The position numbers were made by a program, and so were the translations under genes. Source: an uncultured Neglectibacter sp. (GTDB lineage: Bacteria > Bacillota > Clostridia > Oscillospirales > Acutalibacteraceae). Taken from it: DNA of 64,000 nucleotides. Numbering within the stretch: the stretch's first letter is position 1; each line of letters begins with the position of its first letter. The notes under the pieces were generated by a model. The model was not told where the DNA came from. It did not search any database and saw only the letters and a program-made list of their open reading frames with translations. The stretch is taken from positions 62,001-126,000 of the forward strand of contig CAMNSA010000002.1 of the NCBI GenBank assembly GCA_946554335.1, given 5' to 3'. Positions 17,204-63,422 of this stretch are shown here, one piece after another.

Positions 17204-17608
17204 TTACCTCTTATATTTGTTCGGAGCGTACTTCTTGTTCTCCTCTTTTGCCTTCCAGTAATACTCCTGCAAGGTCTTCATGACACCATCAAGGTCATCG
17301 TCTGAAAGGCTGCCACCGGCAAAAAGACCACCCATCTCCGCAACAAGCTGTTCCGCCTGTTTTTTTCCACTGTACCCATAGCGTGACTGAGCCTCAGAAA
17401 TAAAAGTGTCGCCCTCATTGTAGAGAGCTTCCACAGATACGCCGAGGATTTCCGCAAGGCGTGTGTATACGCCCCTGTCCTGCGGGTAAGTCTTGCCCTT
17501 TTCGTAGTTGCTGATGGTATTGAAGCCAAGTCCAGCTTTTTCGGCGAGTTCTTTTTGCGTGAGGTGCTGCTCCATACGGAGAGCACGGAGCTTTTCACCG
17601 AACTTCAT
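17204..17608 (-). CDS. XRE repressor of the control module (ImmR-like)
   Basis: This 134-residue protein has a Cro/CI helix-turn-helix at residues 4-60 (LTQKELAEKAGLGFNTISNY) and a C-terminal part (AEQLVAEMGGLFAGGSLSDDDLDGVMKTLQEYYW) of the kind found in ImmA-sensitive repressors. GGAGG precedes ATG 17608. It faces the plus-strand gene at 17810. Several TCACAA-N5-TTGTGA sites lie between them, so it probably represses both directions, including itself, the peptidase and the polymerase. That binding is inferred. Confidence 0.88.
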   Translation of the reverse strand: MKFGEKLRALRMEQHLTQKELAEKAGLGFNTISNYEKGKTYPQDRGVYTRLAEILGVSVEALYNEGDTFISEAQSRYGYSGKKQAEQLVAEMGGLFAGGSLSDDDLDGVMKTLQEYYWKAKEENKKYAPNKYKR

Positions 17609-17627
17609 ATCCGCTTCCTCCATTCAC

Positions 17628-17644
17628 TCACAAATTACTTGTGA
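17628..17644. promoter_or_regulatory. Operator O1 (perfect dyad)
   Basis: TCACAA-ATTAC-TTGTGA is a perfect inverted repeat with a 5-base spacer, 20 bases upstream of the repressor start. It probably mediates autoregulation. Confidence 0.75.
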
Positions 17645-17661
17645 TATTTTTAATTTTCCTC

Positions 17662-17690
17662 TTGACTTTCACAAACGGATTTCATATAAT
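17662..17690 (+). promoter_or_regulatory. Strong sigma-A promoter toward 17810
   Basis: TTGACT at 17662-17667 and TATAAT at 17685-17690 have a 17-base spacer. Operator O2 fills the spacer and O3 covers the expected start near 17697, so bound repressor would block it completely. Confidence 0.85.
17669..17685. promoter_or_regulatory. Operator O2 (one arm conserved)
   Basis: TCACAA-ACGGA-TTTCAT has one perfect arm and the same 5-base centre as O3. It lies in the promoter spacer. Confidence 0.55.
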
Positions 17691-17695
17691 GATAT

Positions 17696-17712
17696 TCACA
17701 AACGGATTGTGA
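17696..17712. promoter_or_regulatory. Operator O3 (perfect dyad)
   Basis: TCACAA-ACGGA-TTGTGA has the same arms and spacing as O1 and lies at the expected transcription start of the plus promoter. Confidence 0.75.
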
Positions 17713-17725
17713 GTCACAACCAAAG

Positions 17726-17742
17726 TCTACAGTAACTTGTGA
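17726..17742. promoter_or_regulatory. Operator O4 (degenerate left arm)
   Basis: TCTACA-GTAAC-TTGTGA has a perfect right arm and 4 of 6 bases in the left arm, about 30 bases after O3. Confidence 0.5.
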
Positions 17743-17809
17743 TAATTGTCAAGGGATTTGCGAAAATTTTTTTCGTTTCGGGACAGTTATCGCATAGAGG
17801 AGGTCCTGT

Positions 17810-18055
17810 ATGGTACGACGAAAGGTATATGTCACCGTAAATGCCGAACACAAGCCAGATGGTTCATGCCTGCCGAAAACCATACGAATGGCAGACGAGG
17901 AAGTGTTTGAGATTGACAAGGTGCTGCAAGTTCGTAGAGCGGCTTCGGAAGTTGGAGGCCGTGGCATTTGCTACACCATTAGAATTGGGCGAAGCGAAAC
18001 CCATCTTTTCGACGAACAAAATGGAAAGTGGTTCGTCGAGGCAAAGTTCTGTTAG
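17810..18055 (+). CDS. Unknown small protein under the repressed promoter
   Basis: This 81-residue beta-rich protein is not recognised. It has a clear AGGAGG 7 bases before the ATG and is the first gene after the operator array. It contains RKVYVTVNAEHKPDG at the start and a C-terminal CYTIRIGRSETHLF strand pair. No known motif is present. Similar short genes occur at this position in clostridial elements, followed by an ImmA-like peptidase. Confidence 0.7.
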   Translation: MVRRKVYVTVNAEHKPDGSCLPKTIRMADEEVFEIDKVLQVRRAASEVGGRGICYTIRIGRSETHLFDEQNGKWFVEAKFC

Positions 18056-58211: not shown

Positions 58212-59357
58212 ATGAAACTGTTTCGGAAAAAAATTATTTTTCGGGCTATCAGGATGTTCTCTCTTTGTATCGGCGTCACCGCTGTGACCATGCTGGCCGT
58301 TTCCGGGATCCTGGGAACAGGAACGGGATTTTCTTTTGCGCTTCCCGCCTTCGCGTTCCACGGATCCGGGGAAAAAGTACCCGCGAGCCGGGCGGCTGCC
58401 TCCATCCCCGGAGGCGTAATTCCTGTGGGCTCCGCCTTTGGAATCAAGCTTTTTACGGACGGGGTTATTGTTGCCTCCCTTTCCGACGTTTATACGGAAG
58501 AGGGGCTTTGCTGTCCGGCCCAAAGAGCGGGGATCAAGCCGGGAGATTACCTTCTGGAGGCCGACGGAGTATCCTTAAAGAACAACCGGACGCTCATCAA
58601 GGCCATCGGAAAAAGCGAGGGGAAGGAGATCACCTTTAAGGTGCGCAGGGGCGATCAGATCTTTGAGGCGACAGTCACTCCGGAATTTTCTGAAGGAGCT
58701 CTCAAAACCGGTATGTGGGTGAGAGACAGCGCAGCCGGGATCGGCACCATCACCTTTTACGATCCGGAAACCGGAGTGTTTGCCGGACTGGGCCACGGCA
58801 TCTGCGATATGGACACCAGCGGGGTCATGGCCTTAAAAAGCGGCGAACCCGCCGAGATCACCCTTTGCGGCATCAAAAAGGGCGAGGCCAACGCCCCCGG
58901 ACAGCTGAAGGGGTATTTTTCCTCTGACGAGTCCATGGGCACGCTGTATTCCAACAATGAGACGGGCGTGTATGGGATGCTCAACCAGGCGCCGGAGGGT
59001 GCGGCCGTAAAGGTGGCCCCCAGAGAAGAAGTGAAAAAGGGGCCCGTAAAGCTGCTGGTGAGCCTGGACGACACAGGCCCGCAGCTTTACGACGGGGAGA
59101 TCGAGAAGGTCGGGCCCTTGTCCGACAACACCAGAAATCTGGTTTTGAAGGTCACGGACCCCCGCCTGCTGGAGCTTACCGGCGGCATTGTTCAGGGAAT
59201 GAGCGGCGCGCCTATCCTGCAGGGGGGAAGACTTGCGGGAGCGGTCACCCATGTGTTCACCGAGGATCCTACCAGGGGATACGGTATCTTTGCTGAGACC
59301 ATGCTGGAGCAATGCAGAAAGATCGGGGAGGAGAACTCCTCTGATCTTGCGGCCTAG
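58212..59357 (+). CDS. spoIVB: SpoIVB peptidase
   Basis: This 381-residue serine protease is needed for sigma-K activation in the mother cell during sporulation. It has a membrane anchor (IRMFSLCIGVTAVTMLAVSG) and a PDZ domain at about residues 95-160 (AQRAGIKPGDYLLEADGVSL). The S55 peptidase domain contains the catalytic His in GLGHGICDMD (about 193) and Ser in VQGMSGAPIL (about 329). All are intact. It lies just before spo0A, an arrangement conserved in spore formers. Confidence 0.95.
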   Translation: MKLFRKKIIFRAIRMFSLCIGVTAVTMLAVSGILGTGTGFSFALPAFAFHGSGEKVPASRAAASIPGGVIPVGSAFGIKLFTDGVIVASLSDVYTEEGLCCPAQRAGIKPGDYLLEADGVSLKNNRTLIKAIGKSEGKEITFKVRRGDQIFEATVTPEFSEGALKTGMWVRDSAAGIGTITFYDPETGVFAGLGHGICDMDTSGVMALKSGEPAEITLCGIKKGEANAPGQLKGYFSSDESMGTLYSNNETGVYGMLNQAPEGAAVKVAPREEVKKGPVKLLVSLDDTGPQLYDGEIEKVGPLSDNTRNLVLKVTDPRLLELTGGIVQGMSGAPILQGGRLAGAVTHVFTEDPTRGYGIFAETMLEQCRKIGEENSSDLAA

Positions 59358-59371
59358 CAGATCAGATGAAA

Positions 59372-59414
59372 GGGGCAGGCGTTTCCCGGGGGGAAACGCC
59401 TGCCCCGTTTTTTT
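59372..59414 (+). terminator. Intrinsic terminator of spoIVB
   Basis: A 16-bp perfect stem (GGGGCAGGCGTTTCCC/GGGAAACGCCTGCCCC) with loop GGG and GTTTTTTT. The rest of 59415-59698 is AT-rich and carries the spo0A promoter region. Confidence 0.9.
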
Positions 59415-59540: not shown

Positions 59541-59547
59541 TGTCGAA
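59541..59547. promoter_or_regulatory. 0A box upstream of spo0A
   Basis: A perfect TGTCGAA, the Spo0A-binding core, 158 bases before the spo0A start. TGTCACA lies 13 bases upstream of it. Confidence 0.6.
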
Positions 59548-59635: not shown

Positions 59636-59664
59636 TTGCTATGGCAAGGGGGTTATGGTAAAAT
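59636..59664 (+). promoter_or_regulatory. Promoter of spo0A
   Basis: TTGCTA at 59636-59641 and TAAAAT at 59659-59664, 17-base spacer, 35 bases before the start. A sigma-H alternative was not convincing. Confidence 0.6.
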
Positions 59665-59698: not shown

Positions 59699-60463
59699 AT
59701 GGAAAGACAGTTAAAGCTGCTTGTCAGCGCGCAGGACGGCGAGTGGGATCACGAATCCCTAAAAAAGCTGGAAGAAAAAGGAGGATGTGCCGTCTTTGTC
59801 AAACGGGACGGAAGGGAATTGATCAAACGCATCAGAGAGGAGAAGCCGCAGGTTGTCATTATGGAGATGTTCATGCCTGACTGCGACGCCATGGCCGTGA
59901 TGCACGCGGTGGCGGAAGAGATGACGATGAACAAGCCTGTTTACATTGTGACCGCCTCCTGTCCGATGCCCAATCTGGAGCGGGAGCTTTTGAATCACGG
60001 AGCCTCTTATTTTGCCGTTTCCCCTTATGACAAAAAAGAAATGATTGAGCGTGTATTTTCTCTATTCAGTGCAAAGGGAAAGCATTTTGAAAACGAGCCC
60101 TTAAGCCCCTCTCTCAGGGTGCAGGTGACGGAGATCCTTCATCAAATCGGCGTGCCCGCCCATATCAAGGGATACCATTACCTGAGAGACTCTATTATGA
60201 TGGCTATTGAAGAGCCGGAGATCATCAACGCGGTGACCAAGCAGCTGTACCCCAGTGTGGCTAAGCAGTACAACACCACCAGCTCCCGGGTGGAAAGGGC
60301 CATCCGTCACGCCATTGAGGTGGCCTGGGACAGGGGCAATGTGGATGTGCTCAACTCCTATTTTGGCTACACCATTCACAGCTCCCGGGGCAAACCCACC
60401 AACAGCGAATTCATTGCCATGATCGCTGATAAGCTCACTCTGGAAATGGCAAGTGCCTCTTGA
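59699..60463 (+). CDS. spo0A: Spo0A sporulation regulator with altered receiver domain
   Basis: This 254-residue protein has a receiver-like domain at residues 1-125 and the Spo0A DNA-binding domain at about 145-250. The latter is strongly conserved: [58 protein letters not shown]. The receiver departs from the active pattern. The phospho-acceptor position reads Glu56 ([10 protein letters not shown]) instead of Asp, the usual Lys before Pro is Ser108 ([11 protein letters not shown]), and one of the two N-terminal acidic residues is missing (SAQDGE). Thr85 is kept. AGGAGG precedes ATG 59699. DNA binding is probably independent of phosphorylation, or the fold responds to another input. Confidence 0.93.
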
Positions 60464-60516
60464 CGAGGGAACTCCCGCCTGCTGATTACATCATACTCGC
60501 CCGGAACTAATTTTTT

Positions 60517-60523
60517 TGTCGAA
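60517..60523. promoter_or_regulatory. 0A box downstream of spo0A
   Basis: A perfect TGTCGAA followed 5 bases later by TGTGACA, a mirror image of the TGTCACA/TGTCGAA pair upstream of the gene. Confidence 0.5.
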
Positions 60524-60636
60524 AAATGTGACATAAATTCACTTTATTGTAAATGATGTGTGAACAGCACACTATATGTAGTGTAAGGTCAAAAAATGAC
60601 CTCTGAAAACTGGGGGGCAAAAAGGAAAGGGACTAA

Positions 60637-60664
60637 AAAGGACGCGGCGTTTGCCGCGTCCTTT
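60637..60664. terminator. Bidirectional terminator
   Basis: A 12-bp stem (AAAGGACGCGGC/GCCGCGTCCTTT) with loop GTTT between the converging genes ending at 60463 and 60681. The minus-strand tail is TTTAGTCCC. Confidence 0.8.
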
Positions 60665-60680: not shown

Positions 60681-62390
60681 TTAAAATTCCAGATTCTCCA
60701 CCGGGCAGATGCCGTCTTCCTCTTCGCCAGGCAGAAGCTTTACGCGGCTTCCCGACTTGACCAGCACCACCTTTTCAAACTGGGCGCAGTCCACCTTGTA
60801 GGCGGAGCCCCCCGCAATGAGGTAGGCGTAGGAGCTGCCGTCCTGTACCAGATACCGGACCTCTTCCACCGTCACGGTTTTCCAGTCGGTGCTTTCCGCG
60901 GAAACCGTTTCCTTTGAAAGCATCCCGGCGTCTGACAAGGCTGTTTTGTATTTTGACATGACCTCCCGCTGAGTGGTGGCGGTAACCACGATATTGTACC
61001 GCTCCACATGGATCAGGGCGTATTGCTTCACAAGGCTTCCCTTGTCCTTGAGCACCATGATATAGGTGGGCTGCCCCTCCACATTGATGACAGAGGGGAA
61101 AGAGGCCGTGTAACCCAGGTTTTGCACCTCGCCCTCGGCAGAGCGCATGACGGAGTATTCCTCCGCTCCGGGAATGGGGTAGTAACGGATCTCGCCGGTG
61201 CGGGAATTCATGAGGACGAAGCCGATATTGGACTCGTCGGAGGCCACGCTGGTGACGCCGGTAAAGACCCATACATCATCCTCAAACATCTTGTAACCGA
61301 AGTCGCTGGTCACATGCTTGCAGTCTTTCTTCGCGAAAATGCTGTTGAAATATCCGCCGGACAGCTCACCGTACCAGTCATAGATCTGGGTGAGCATGTC
61401 TCCGTCGTATACGATATCGACCCAGTTGGGGATCTCACTGACATCGTAATACTGGGTCTCTCCCGTGATGGCGTTCAGAATCACCGCGCCCTTCACCGTG
61501 GTCCCGCCGAAGAGAAAGACCTCCTTCTTCAGCACGGAGGTGATATAGTAGGGAGTTCCGTTATCATCCACCTCAAAATAGCTGTTTCCAAACATGGCGG
61601 TGCGATAGCGGAATCTCAGGTGGCGGCGCAGATCCTTGTCAAAATAGGCGGATTCCCCGTACTGCATGGGCTCGCTGAGCCGGACAAAACGGCTGGTGTT
61701 TTCCACCGGATCCACCGCGATATAGCCGGGGATCCCGTCCGCCTTATTGGCCCACCAACGGAAGAAATCGGCGTATTCCAGAGGGGTGACCTTCATGGGC
61801 TTTCCGTTCAGATTAATCTGCGTATACAGGTCTTCATTGATCTCAAACTGGCTGACCAGCTCGTTTAAAGAGCCCAGGGCTCTGGCGCCGATGATACGGG
61901 CGCTGCCGGTGTCCATCAGGGCAATATCGGAAATGGTTTCCGAAGGGGGCACATCGGAAATGAAGTCCCTGGGTTCAATGTCCCCCGCGATCCGAGCGTA
62001 GCTCTTGGCATGAAAGATTTCCGAGGAGAAGAAGGAAAGCACGATCCCCACGGCGGCGATGGCAACGGCGGCTCCGATACAGTATTTTCCCAGCCTGGCT
62101 TTGGGCCGGTCCTCAGAAAAGGCGATGTTGATGGCGTTTCCCGCTTTGGAATGGGCGGAATGAAGTCCCAATTCCAGATGGAGGCCGGAGTTGAAAACCA
62201 GCTCTAACAGGCCGAAAAATCCGGGTACCGCGCACAGCAAAAACCAGGTGTCGCCGGACTGGATATGATAGGCAGGGAGCATGAAATAGTCATATACGGC
62301 AAAAGCGATCAGGGTCAGCAGGACGCACAGCAAGTGCTGCTTCCATCTTGTTCCGGAGGTCTTTTTCGCGCCTTGTTTCTCTTTTCTCAT
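60681..62390 (-). CDS. Large unknown membrane protein
   Basis: This 569-residue protein has three N-terminal helices (HLLCVLLTLIAFAVYDYFML, LLCAVPGFFGLLELVFN, IGAAVAIAAVGIVLSFFS). A long extracytoplasmic part of about 430 residues follows, beta-rich, with FVLMNSRTGEIRYYPIPGAE and similar strands. I do not recognise the family. It has its own transcription unit between two terminators. A cell-envelope role is inferred from topology. Confidence 0.65.
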   Translation of the reverse strand: MRKEKQGAKKTSGTRWKQHLLCVLLTLIAFAVYDYFMLPAYHIQSGDTWFLLCAVPGFFGLLELVFNSGLHLELGLHSAHSKAGNAINIAFSEDRPKARLGKYCIGAAVAIAAVGIVLSFFSSEIFHAKSYARIAGDIEPRDFISDVPPSETISDIALMDTGSARIIGARALGSLNELVSQFEINEDLYTQINLNGKPMKVTPLEYADFFRWWANKADGIPGYIAVDPVENTSRFVRLSEPMQYGESAYFDKDLRRHLRFRYRTAMFGNSYFEVDDNGTPYYITSVLKKEVFLFGGTTVKGAVILNAITGETQYYDVSEIPNWVDIVYDGDMLTQIYDWYGELSGGYFNSIFAKKDCKHVTSDFGYKMFEDDVWVFTGVTSVASDESNIGFVLMNSRTGEIRYYPIPGAEEYSVMRSAEGEVQNLGYTASFPSVINVEGQPTYIMVLKDKGSLVKQYALIHVERYNIVVTATTQREVMSKYKTALSDAGMLSKETVSAESTDWKTVTVEEVRYLVQDGSSYAYLIAGGSAYKVDCAQFEKVVLVKSGSRVKLLPGEEEDGICPVENLEF

Positions 62391-62635: not shown

Positions 62636-63328
62636 ATGACGGTACTCAAGATCCTTCTCGCCTCCGGCGTCTCCCTTGTGATTCTTTTTATTCTTACAAA
62701 GCTGATGGGAAATAAACAGATCTCTCAGATGAATCTGTTTGATTATATTACGGGCATTACCATTGGTTCTATCGCGGCGGAGCTGGCCACCGAGCTGGAA
62801 GAGCCATTGAAACCGGCCGTTGCCATGATCCTCTATGGAGTCGTGACAGTGGCAATTTCTTTTTTGACCTCCAAATGCAATAAGGCCAGAGCTTTTTTTG
62901 CCGGGAAGCCAATTATTCTCATGCGGGATGGAAAGCTCAGCCGGGAACAGATGAAAAAGTCGAAGCTGGATCTCAATGAGCTGCTGGCGATGGCACGCCT
63001 GGCAGGATATTTTGATTTGGGCGAGATCGACTCTGCCATATTTGAGCAAAACGGAAATGTAAGCTTTCTGCCGAAAGCAGGCTTCCGTCCGGCTACTCCC
63101 GAAGACATGAAGCTGCCGGTGAAGGGCGAGGGAATCCTTGCCAATGTCATTGTGGATTCCCAGGTGATGGAAGAGGAATTGAAGCTTTTCGGAAAAGATG
63201 AAAAATGGCTTTCAGAGCAGCTGAAAAAGGAAAAGCTCAAAGGCCCGGAGGAGGTATTTCTGGCCACGCTGGACCGGGAAGGGAAGCTGACTGTATTTCC
63301 GACCGGGAAGAAGGACGGGAACCGATAA
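62636..63328 (+). CDS. DUF421 (YetF/YdfS-like) membrane protein
   Basis: This 230-residue protein has two or three N-terminal helices (ILLASGVSLVILFILTKLMG, GVVTVAISFLTSK). The DUF421 pattern (LTKLMGNKQISQMNLFDYIT, GSIAAELATELEEPL) and the cytosolic part (KPIILMRDGKLSREQMKKSK) follow. Family members affect spore or envelope traits in Bacillus. Its last codons and stop lie in the first copy of a 15-bp tandem repeat. Confidence 0.88.
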   Translation: MTVLKILLASGVSLVILFILTKLMGNKQISQMNLFDYITGITIGSIAAELATELEEPLKPAVAMILYGVVTVAISFLTSKCNKARAFFAGKPIILMRDGKLSREQMKKSKLDLNELLAMARLAGYFDLGEIDSAIFEQNGNVSFLPKAGFRPATPEDMKLPVKGEGILANVIVDSQVMEEELKLFGKDEKWLSEQLKKEKLKGPEEVFLATLDREGKLTVFPTGKKDGNR

Positions 63329-63416
63329 ATCGGGAACCGATAAATCGGGAATCGATAAATCGGGAATCGATAAATCGGGAATCGATAAATCGGGAATCGA
63401 CAGATCGGAAAGCGAC
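63316..63416. repeat. 15-bp tandem repeat at the DUF421 stop codon
   Basis: About 6.7 copies of CGGGAAYCGATAAAT. The first two carry ACCG, the next three ATCG, and the sixth ends CAGAT. The DUF421 stop is in copy 1. The length of 15 keeps frame, and each unit holds TAA in that frame, so copy changes do not alter the protein end. Confidence 0.9.
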
Positions 63417-63422
63417 AAAAAG

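Follow-up and report, generated by a model that had tools for sequence, protein, structure and literature searches.

The window, the whole 64,000-nucleotide stretch of an uncultured Neglectibacter sp. analysed here, carries a spo0A gene whose 254-residue product is identified by the full-length equivalog model TIGR02875 (247.4 bits, cut-off 200) and matches Response_reg (Pfam accession: PF00072; 38.8 bits) and Spo0A_C (Pfam accession: PF08769; 163 bits). The features of the gene and its upstream region are:

58212..59357, + strand: spoIVB (SpoIVB peptidase S55; TIGR02860, 316.6 bits, cut-off 305)
59372..59406, + strand: terminator-like hairpin of 16 pairs between spoIVB and spo0A (sequence prediction)
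59541..59547, + strand: 0A-box core TGTCGAA, 158 bases before the spo0A start codon (exact-core search)
59636..59664, + strand: promoter-like site TTGCTA-17-TAAAAT with TG before the -10 (sequence motif)
59699..60463, + strand: spo0A coding sequence, 254 amino acids, pseudo-receiver plus Spo0A_C DNA-binding domain
59699..60076, + strand: receiver-fold domain, residues 1–126, five of five catalytic positions altered (family alignments)
59729..59734, + strand: A11-Q12 replacing the acidic pair (Bacillus subtilis D10-D11; family alignments)
59864..59866, + strand: Glu56 (codon GAG) at the phospho-acceptor position (alignment; strand β3 ends at 56 in the structural model)
59954..59956, + strand: Ala86 at the conserved Thr/Ser position (family alignments)
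60020..60022, + strand: Ser108 replacing the switch Lys (family alignments)
60074..60100, + strand: linker motif [RK]G[RK]HFxxEP, residues 126–134, KGKHFENEP in the window (alignment)
60116..60118, + strand: Arg140 in the first helix of the DNA-binding half (alignment; helix 137–150 in the model)
60125..60436, + strand: Spo0A_C DNA-binding domain, residues 143–246 (PF08769 match)

The original prediction had described a near-canonical DNA-binding half joined to a receiver with Glu in place of the phospho-acceptor Asp, Ser108 where the switch Lys would be and a reduced acidic pocket; the translated reading frame and the alignments bear out each of these points for the receiver, and the Spo0A_C score, with 57–63% identity to the 1fc3 and 1lq1 chains (Foldseek), does so for the DNA-binding half. 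At the positions where a canonical receiver carries its acidic pair, Asp, Thr/Ser and Lys, the window protein reads A11, Q12, E56, A86 and S108. This makes it an aspartate-less receiver, as are 12 of the 28 Spo0A proteins of the genus, and places it among the pseudo-receivers or atypical response regulators, defined by the loss of any of five conserved residues (PMC12632262). A mixed alignment with other receivers is shifted by one and pairs T85 with the conserved Thr and Q12/D13 with the acidic pocket, so the placement of A11/Q12 and A86 rests on the family alignment and on the end of strand β4 at residue 86.

An AlphaFold model (mean pLDDT 88, pTM 0.55), fed with an alignment of the window protein and 73 of 80 titled-record loci (four did not begin with ATG or were of unusual length, and L100, L109 and L128 were set aside by choice), confirms both folds together with Foldseek, neither method separating active from inactive receivers. 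Mean pLDDT per ten residues is 85–97 over receiver residues 1–120 and lies below 50 for linker residues 128–135, the interdomain arrangement in the model not being reliable. No second receiver-bearing Spo0A was found in the window genome, where the other weak Spo0A_C match is an 88-amino-acid frame with no receiver match on the same contig. TIGR02875 places the protein over its threshold like any ordinary Spo0A, so annotation can easily conceal the variant.

Upstream region and gene neighbourhood

The strong hairpin after spoIVB and the promoter-like site make it probable that spo0A has its own promoter, the number of promoter-like sites in the region not exceeding that in shuffled sequences. 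Sixteen of the 28 genus members carry the heptamer TGTCGAA, which we take to be the 0A-box core consensus, in one or other orientation in the 300 bases before spo0A, with 1.1 expected from dinucleotide-based shuffles in which the non-independence of close relatives is not accounted for; ten of the 16 cores sit at -156 to -158, and the remaining 12 members have no exact core there. This enrichment, and the predicted box before the window's own gene, fit a retained autoregulation of Spo0A. Over the whole window the core is not enriched. Searches for the exact core alone found it upstream of spoIIE in one of 20 cases (0.44 expected) and not upstream of spoIIAA in the window genome.

The position of spo0A after an intact spoIVB, put forward originally as a sign of a retained sporulation setting, holds in the window, where TIGR02860 scores above its cut-off, and in one relative (G007, 81% identical in Spo0A), but not in the seven other genus loci examined. 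In two relatives, G010 (L232:10673-13497) and G027 (L237:9050-11865), spo0A lies divergently beside spoIIGA and sigE, the former recognised by Pfam Peptidase_U4 and the latter by NF006158 above its cut-off. A hybrid kinase that G007 and G022 carry close to spo0A at first seemed of interest but was dismissed, since it is not a conserved neighbour across the nine contexts compared.

Downstream of spo0A, the intergenic stretch 60516-60664 contains the sequence TTTGTCGAAAAATGTGACA and a 12-pair terminator-like hairpin, and could encode a small RNA. A box at 60516-60523 is not above chance for the window, and four Rfam matches near spo0A, all far below the gathering score, were taken as chance. Further on, 60681-62390 (- strand) holds a 569-amino-acid reading frame convergent with spo0A, for which Pfam and NCBIfam give no match at E 0.001, and a 15-base tandem repeat of 6.9 copies (63316-63419) spans the end of a YetF-like gene (62636-63328).

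Receiver and linker across the genus

Spo0A sequences were aligned from the window, from 57 of 60 relatives (mostly one row per genome) and from B. subtilis, followed by the 80 titled-record loci. Among the 28 same-genus relatives examined, a Spo0A match was found in 27, the exception being G024 (60% complete), so that the genus set comprises 28 proteins with that of the window; the match in G046, cut by a contig end, was left out of the aligned set. The outside set of 109 rows, from which L064 and B. subtilis were omitted, is biased towards sequences resembling the window Spo0A, and only this genus was sampled in depth.

Within the genus, position 108 is Ser in 19 members, Ala in four, Thr in three and Met in two, with Lys or Arg in none, and position 56 is acidic throughout (16 Asp, 12 Glu). 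By the Spo0A-family alignment, on which the counts at positions 10, 11 and 86 depend, the first pocket acid is kept in none of the 28 (position 10: 16 Ser, five Gly, four Thr, three Ala), the second site is acidic in 27 (position 11: 20 Glu, seven Asp and the single Gln of the window), and position 86 is Ala in 23, Ser in four and Thr in one. Ala86 is found in all 12 Glu56 members and in 11 of the 16 Asp56 members, and each of the seven D11 members also has D56. Outside the genus, Asp56 is present in 91 of 109 rows, Lys108 in 95 and Arg108 in six; at least four of the five catalytic residues are kept in 76 of these rows versus none of the 28 genus members, with D/E and S/T counted as kept.

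The genus-wide feature is thus the loss of Lys and of the first pocket acid, not Glu56. To the original question of whether E56 and S108 are clade-wide, the answer divides: Lys108 is absent from all 28 proteins, while Glu56 is confined to 12. A normal Asp in close relatives had been named as evidence against the prediction, and it does occur, in G007 and in 16 of 28 members overall, yet all 28 lack Lys108. A base-calling error at codon 56, the other objection foreseen, is very unlikely, since relative G028 (81% identical to the window protein) also has Glu56, encoded by the different codon GAA. The change does not reflect genome-wide decay of receivers: of 20 other receiver matches in the window genome, C16:8925 collapsed onto its neighbour and C5:89386 gave no alignment, and the 18 distinct receivers that could be read have Asp in 18 of 18 and Lys in 17 of 18.

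Maximum-likelihood analysis of 51 of the 139 aligned rows, with column 56 masked, groups the genus as one clade (support 100/99) and assigns the loss of Lys108 to one change on the genus stem (length 0.66). Inside the genus, position 56 has undergone at least five Asp/Glu changes, never to another residue, in a direction the tree does not give. On a larger quick tree of 136 rows (L135, L058 and L064 omitted, the last from the same contig as G018), Lys/Arg versus other residues at 108 needs seven changes overall, and the Asp/non-Asp state at 56 needs 15 among rows outside the genus. Asp-less Spo0A has thus arisen repeatedly among related Clostridia. The outside rows without Asp56 number 17 of 109 (eight Asn, seven Glu, two Ser), plus one gap; like the window protein they lack the Asp, and five have neither Lys nor Arg at 108, but they are scattered over shallowly sampled genera, and nine keep Lys and three have Arg. 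The loci concerned are L115, L068, L070, L087, L092, L116, L129, L131 and L136, and, at the level of the order, L022, L027, L037, L038, L041, L045, L055 and L059, of which L055 and L059 are two copies from one genome; Bittarella massiliensis (L115) combines Asn56 with Gln108.

New positions have become fixed alongside these losses. The linker motif [RK]G[RK]HFxxEP occurs in 26 of 28 genus members, the sisters G016 and G004 being without it, versus none of the 109 outside rows; residue 140 is Arg or Lys in all 28 versus Glu or Asp in 103 of 109 outside, with a single acid/base change on the tree; and Trp16, rare outside, is present in all 28. That the interdomain region was rebuilt as the phospho-site was lost speaks most strongly for a mechanism that has altered rather than decayed.

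Receiver and DNA-binding domain are both under purifying selection. For the 25 pairs least diverged in receiver dN, ω is 0.03–0.23 in the receiver and 0–0.07 in the DNA-binding domain, rough values given that dS is high in several pairs, and a receiver ω in this range argues that the domain is not decaying. At 85–90% identity of the DNA-binding domain, median receiver identity is 0.54 in the genus versus 0.49 in canonical Spo0A, and at 90–95% it is 0.55 versus 0.66, so that for a given identity of the DNA-binding domain the receivers of the genus show no clear excess of divergence over canonical ones; columns have a mean entropy of 1.17 in the genus and 1.31 in 13 near outside rows. The median ratio of receiver to DNA-binding domain divergence is higher in the genus (3.3 versus 2.7 in canonical Spo0A), which could mean relaxed constraint, and the genus receiver is maintained, though perhaps under slightly relaxed constraint.

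Sporulation genes and kinases

In gene content the sporulation setting is retained, as had been proposed, in the window genome and in nearly all genus relatives. The genes sought were those for SpoIVA, SpoIIE, SASP, sigG and SpoIVB plus a sigF-like gene, and the window genome holds all of them: SpoIVA, SpoIIE (346 bits, cut-off 491), SASP, SpoIVB, an intact sigG (NF006071, 417 bits, cut-off 372) and a sigF-like gene adjoining spoIIAB. SpoIVA was found in 27 of 28 same-genus relatives, and among the 22 sampled SASP was found in 20 and SpoIIE in 21, no SpoIIE match reaching the curated cut-off and two being irregular (a fragment in G008, two frames in G011). The two relatives without a SASP match and the one without a SpoIIE match are represented by genomes 63–84% complete.

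In G004 and G022, and by model positions in G027 and G024, sigG is split at one common point, after ...STYGVPM. The two split genes with coordinates are:

L224:2250-2573 and 17459-17959 (G004:C4): split sigG, about 15 kb intervening
L228:1817-2143 and L229:2330-2878 (G022:C1): split sigG, about 60 kb intervening

Close to the break lies the gene for a large serine recombinase with Resolvase, Recombinase and zinc-ribbon domains, an arrangement that resembles the skin element of sigK. Such an interruption is odd for a sigma factor of the forespore, where excision would be inherited. No case of an interrupted sigG appears in titles and abstract openings among the matches listed.

The kinase complement does not discriminate between receiver types. 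The window genome has 11 HisKA matches, seven near a response regulator and four in hybrids with receiver domains, and in G035, which has a canonical receiver, all 13 HisKA matches lie near a regulator (16 of 17 receivers among the matches listed). Kinase loss was therefore discarded as a marker, and with the kinases of G035 also paired with regulators, the census speaks neither for nor against the model set out below. Spo0E was found in none of the 60 relatives, canonical ones included, nor in the window genome, and is equally uninformative.

Interpretation of the altered receiver

According to a recent review, every endospore former enters sporulation by way of Spo0A, which is activated by phosphorylation of a conserved Asp (PMC11210211). 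For this genus, the residue losses and the rebuilt linker make it fairly probable that Spo0A is an atypical regulator with a pseudo-receiver throughout, its output governed mainly by its amount together with input through the receiver surface and linker. The switch Lys was lost on the genus stem, in a lineage in which the first pocket acid is found in no member and Thr/Ser is missing in most; with these residues gone, kinase switching through Asp phosphorylation is probably no longer possible. The receiver fold would be retained as a regulatory or dimerisation platform, attached through an interdomain region rebuilt around the linker motif and the replacement of an acid by Arg/Lys at 140, while the intact DNA-binding domain would still read 0A boxes, including the one before spo0A, and bind DNA without phosphotransfer. 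Output would then be set mainly by the amount of Spo0A, made from its own promoter with 0A-box feedback, and some protein, ligand or modification may add an input by acting on the receiver surface and linker. In B. subtilis, bursts of spo0A transcription move cells closer to developmental transitions (PMC3084206), which makes control by dosage plausible, there jointly with phosphorylation. The earlier suggestion of a response to an input different from phosphotransfer agrees with a receiver without the normal phospho-acceptor residues in a genome that keeps its spore genes.

The accompanying suggestion, that Glu56 is a built-in phosphomimic through which Spo0A is constitutively active, fares worse and appears improbable. 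Glu is the commonest replacement of Asp in aspartate-less receivers (26%) and activates some regulators (PMC4395418, PMC12632262), and position 56 is acidic in all 28 members. Mimicry of phospho-Asp, however, has been suggested to work perhaps through contacts of Glu with the conserved Thr and Lys (PMC12632262), which are missing in 12 of 12 Glu56 members, and Spo0A is listed among the regulators in which the change from Asp to Glu by itself does not suffice (PMC4395418). With these partners gone, and with Asp in 16 of 28 members on the same degenerate background after at least five changes, Glu56 loses its standing as the special feature and simple mimicry is unlikely. Another view is that the Asp56 species are still phosphorylated in a relaxed pocket, by a kinase or a small phosphodonor, the Glu species being fixed in the on state. 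Weak or unusual phosphorylation in the former is possible: Asp56 in 16 members and a position-11 acid in 27 make it conceivable, substitutions at DD, T or K may leave some phosphorylation in place (PMC12632262), D11 always accompanies D56, and the window genome encodes four hybrid kinases. As an account of the genus this is nevertheless rather doubtful, Lys108 and the first pocket acid being missing in every member, the D11/D56 association amounting to four independent pairs on the tree, and the window species itself lacking both Asp56 and a position-11 acid.

Loss of sporulation in the genus, complete or under way, with a Spo0A that now regulates other genes or decays, is unlikely. The interruption of sigG in at least two relatives and the absent SASP (two of 22) and SpoIIE (one) matches point in that direction, but purifying selection acts on both domains, nearly all genus relatives have SpoIVA, SpoIIE and SASP, and the sigG break has a serine recombinase nearby, as an excisable element would carry. 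More tentative than the pseudo-receiver reading itself, although more credible than any of these three alternatives, is the idea that the genus has freed sporulation initiation from histidine-kinase phosphorylation, turned Spo0A into a phosphate-independent regulator that answers to dosage or to a ligand or partner at the pseudo-receiver and new linker, and put the acid at 56 to new use, maybe as a partner of Arg/Lys140, a pairing that is a guess.

The pseudo-receiver Spo0A shares with canonical Spo0A (TIGR02875) its domain order, Spo0A_C, a 0A-box core before its own gene and, in the window, the spoIVB neighbour, and differs from it in the five altered catalytic positions of the window receiver and in the linker motif and R/K140 of the genus. 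Like ChxR, RitR, FrzS and GlnR (PMC4395418, PMC12632262), it has a receiver fold without Asp/Lys chemistry, with Glu the commonest replacement in such proteins; unlike them, the regulator is Spo0A, and a single genus, from which Lys has been lost throughout, has Asp in some members and Glu in others. RitR of Streptococcus pneumoniae is likewise a pseudo-receiver with a functionally important interdomain linker, but that linker serves Cys-based dimerisation (PMC12632262) and the genus motif has no Cys. Spo0A is not mentioned in the main text of PMC12632262, and titles and abstract openings among the matches listed describe neither a Spo0A pseudo-receiver nor an Asp-less Spo0A.

A genus that carries spore genes and a dismantled phospho-site makes the conserved-Asp rule for Spo0A testable, and the start of sporulation there may depend on a signal other than the textbook kinase. 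If the pseudo-receiver reading is true, sporulation kinases might be sought in vain in this genus, and a developmental master switch would prove detachable from two-component signalling.
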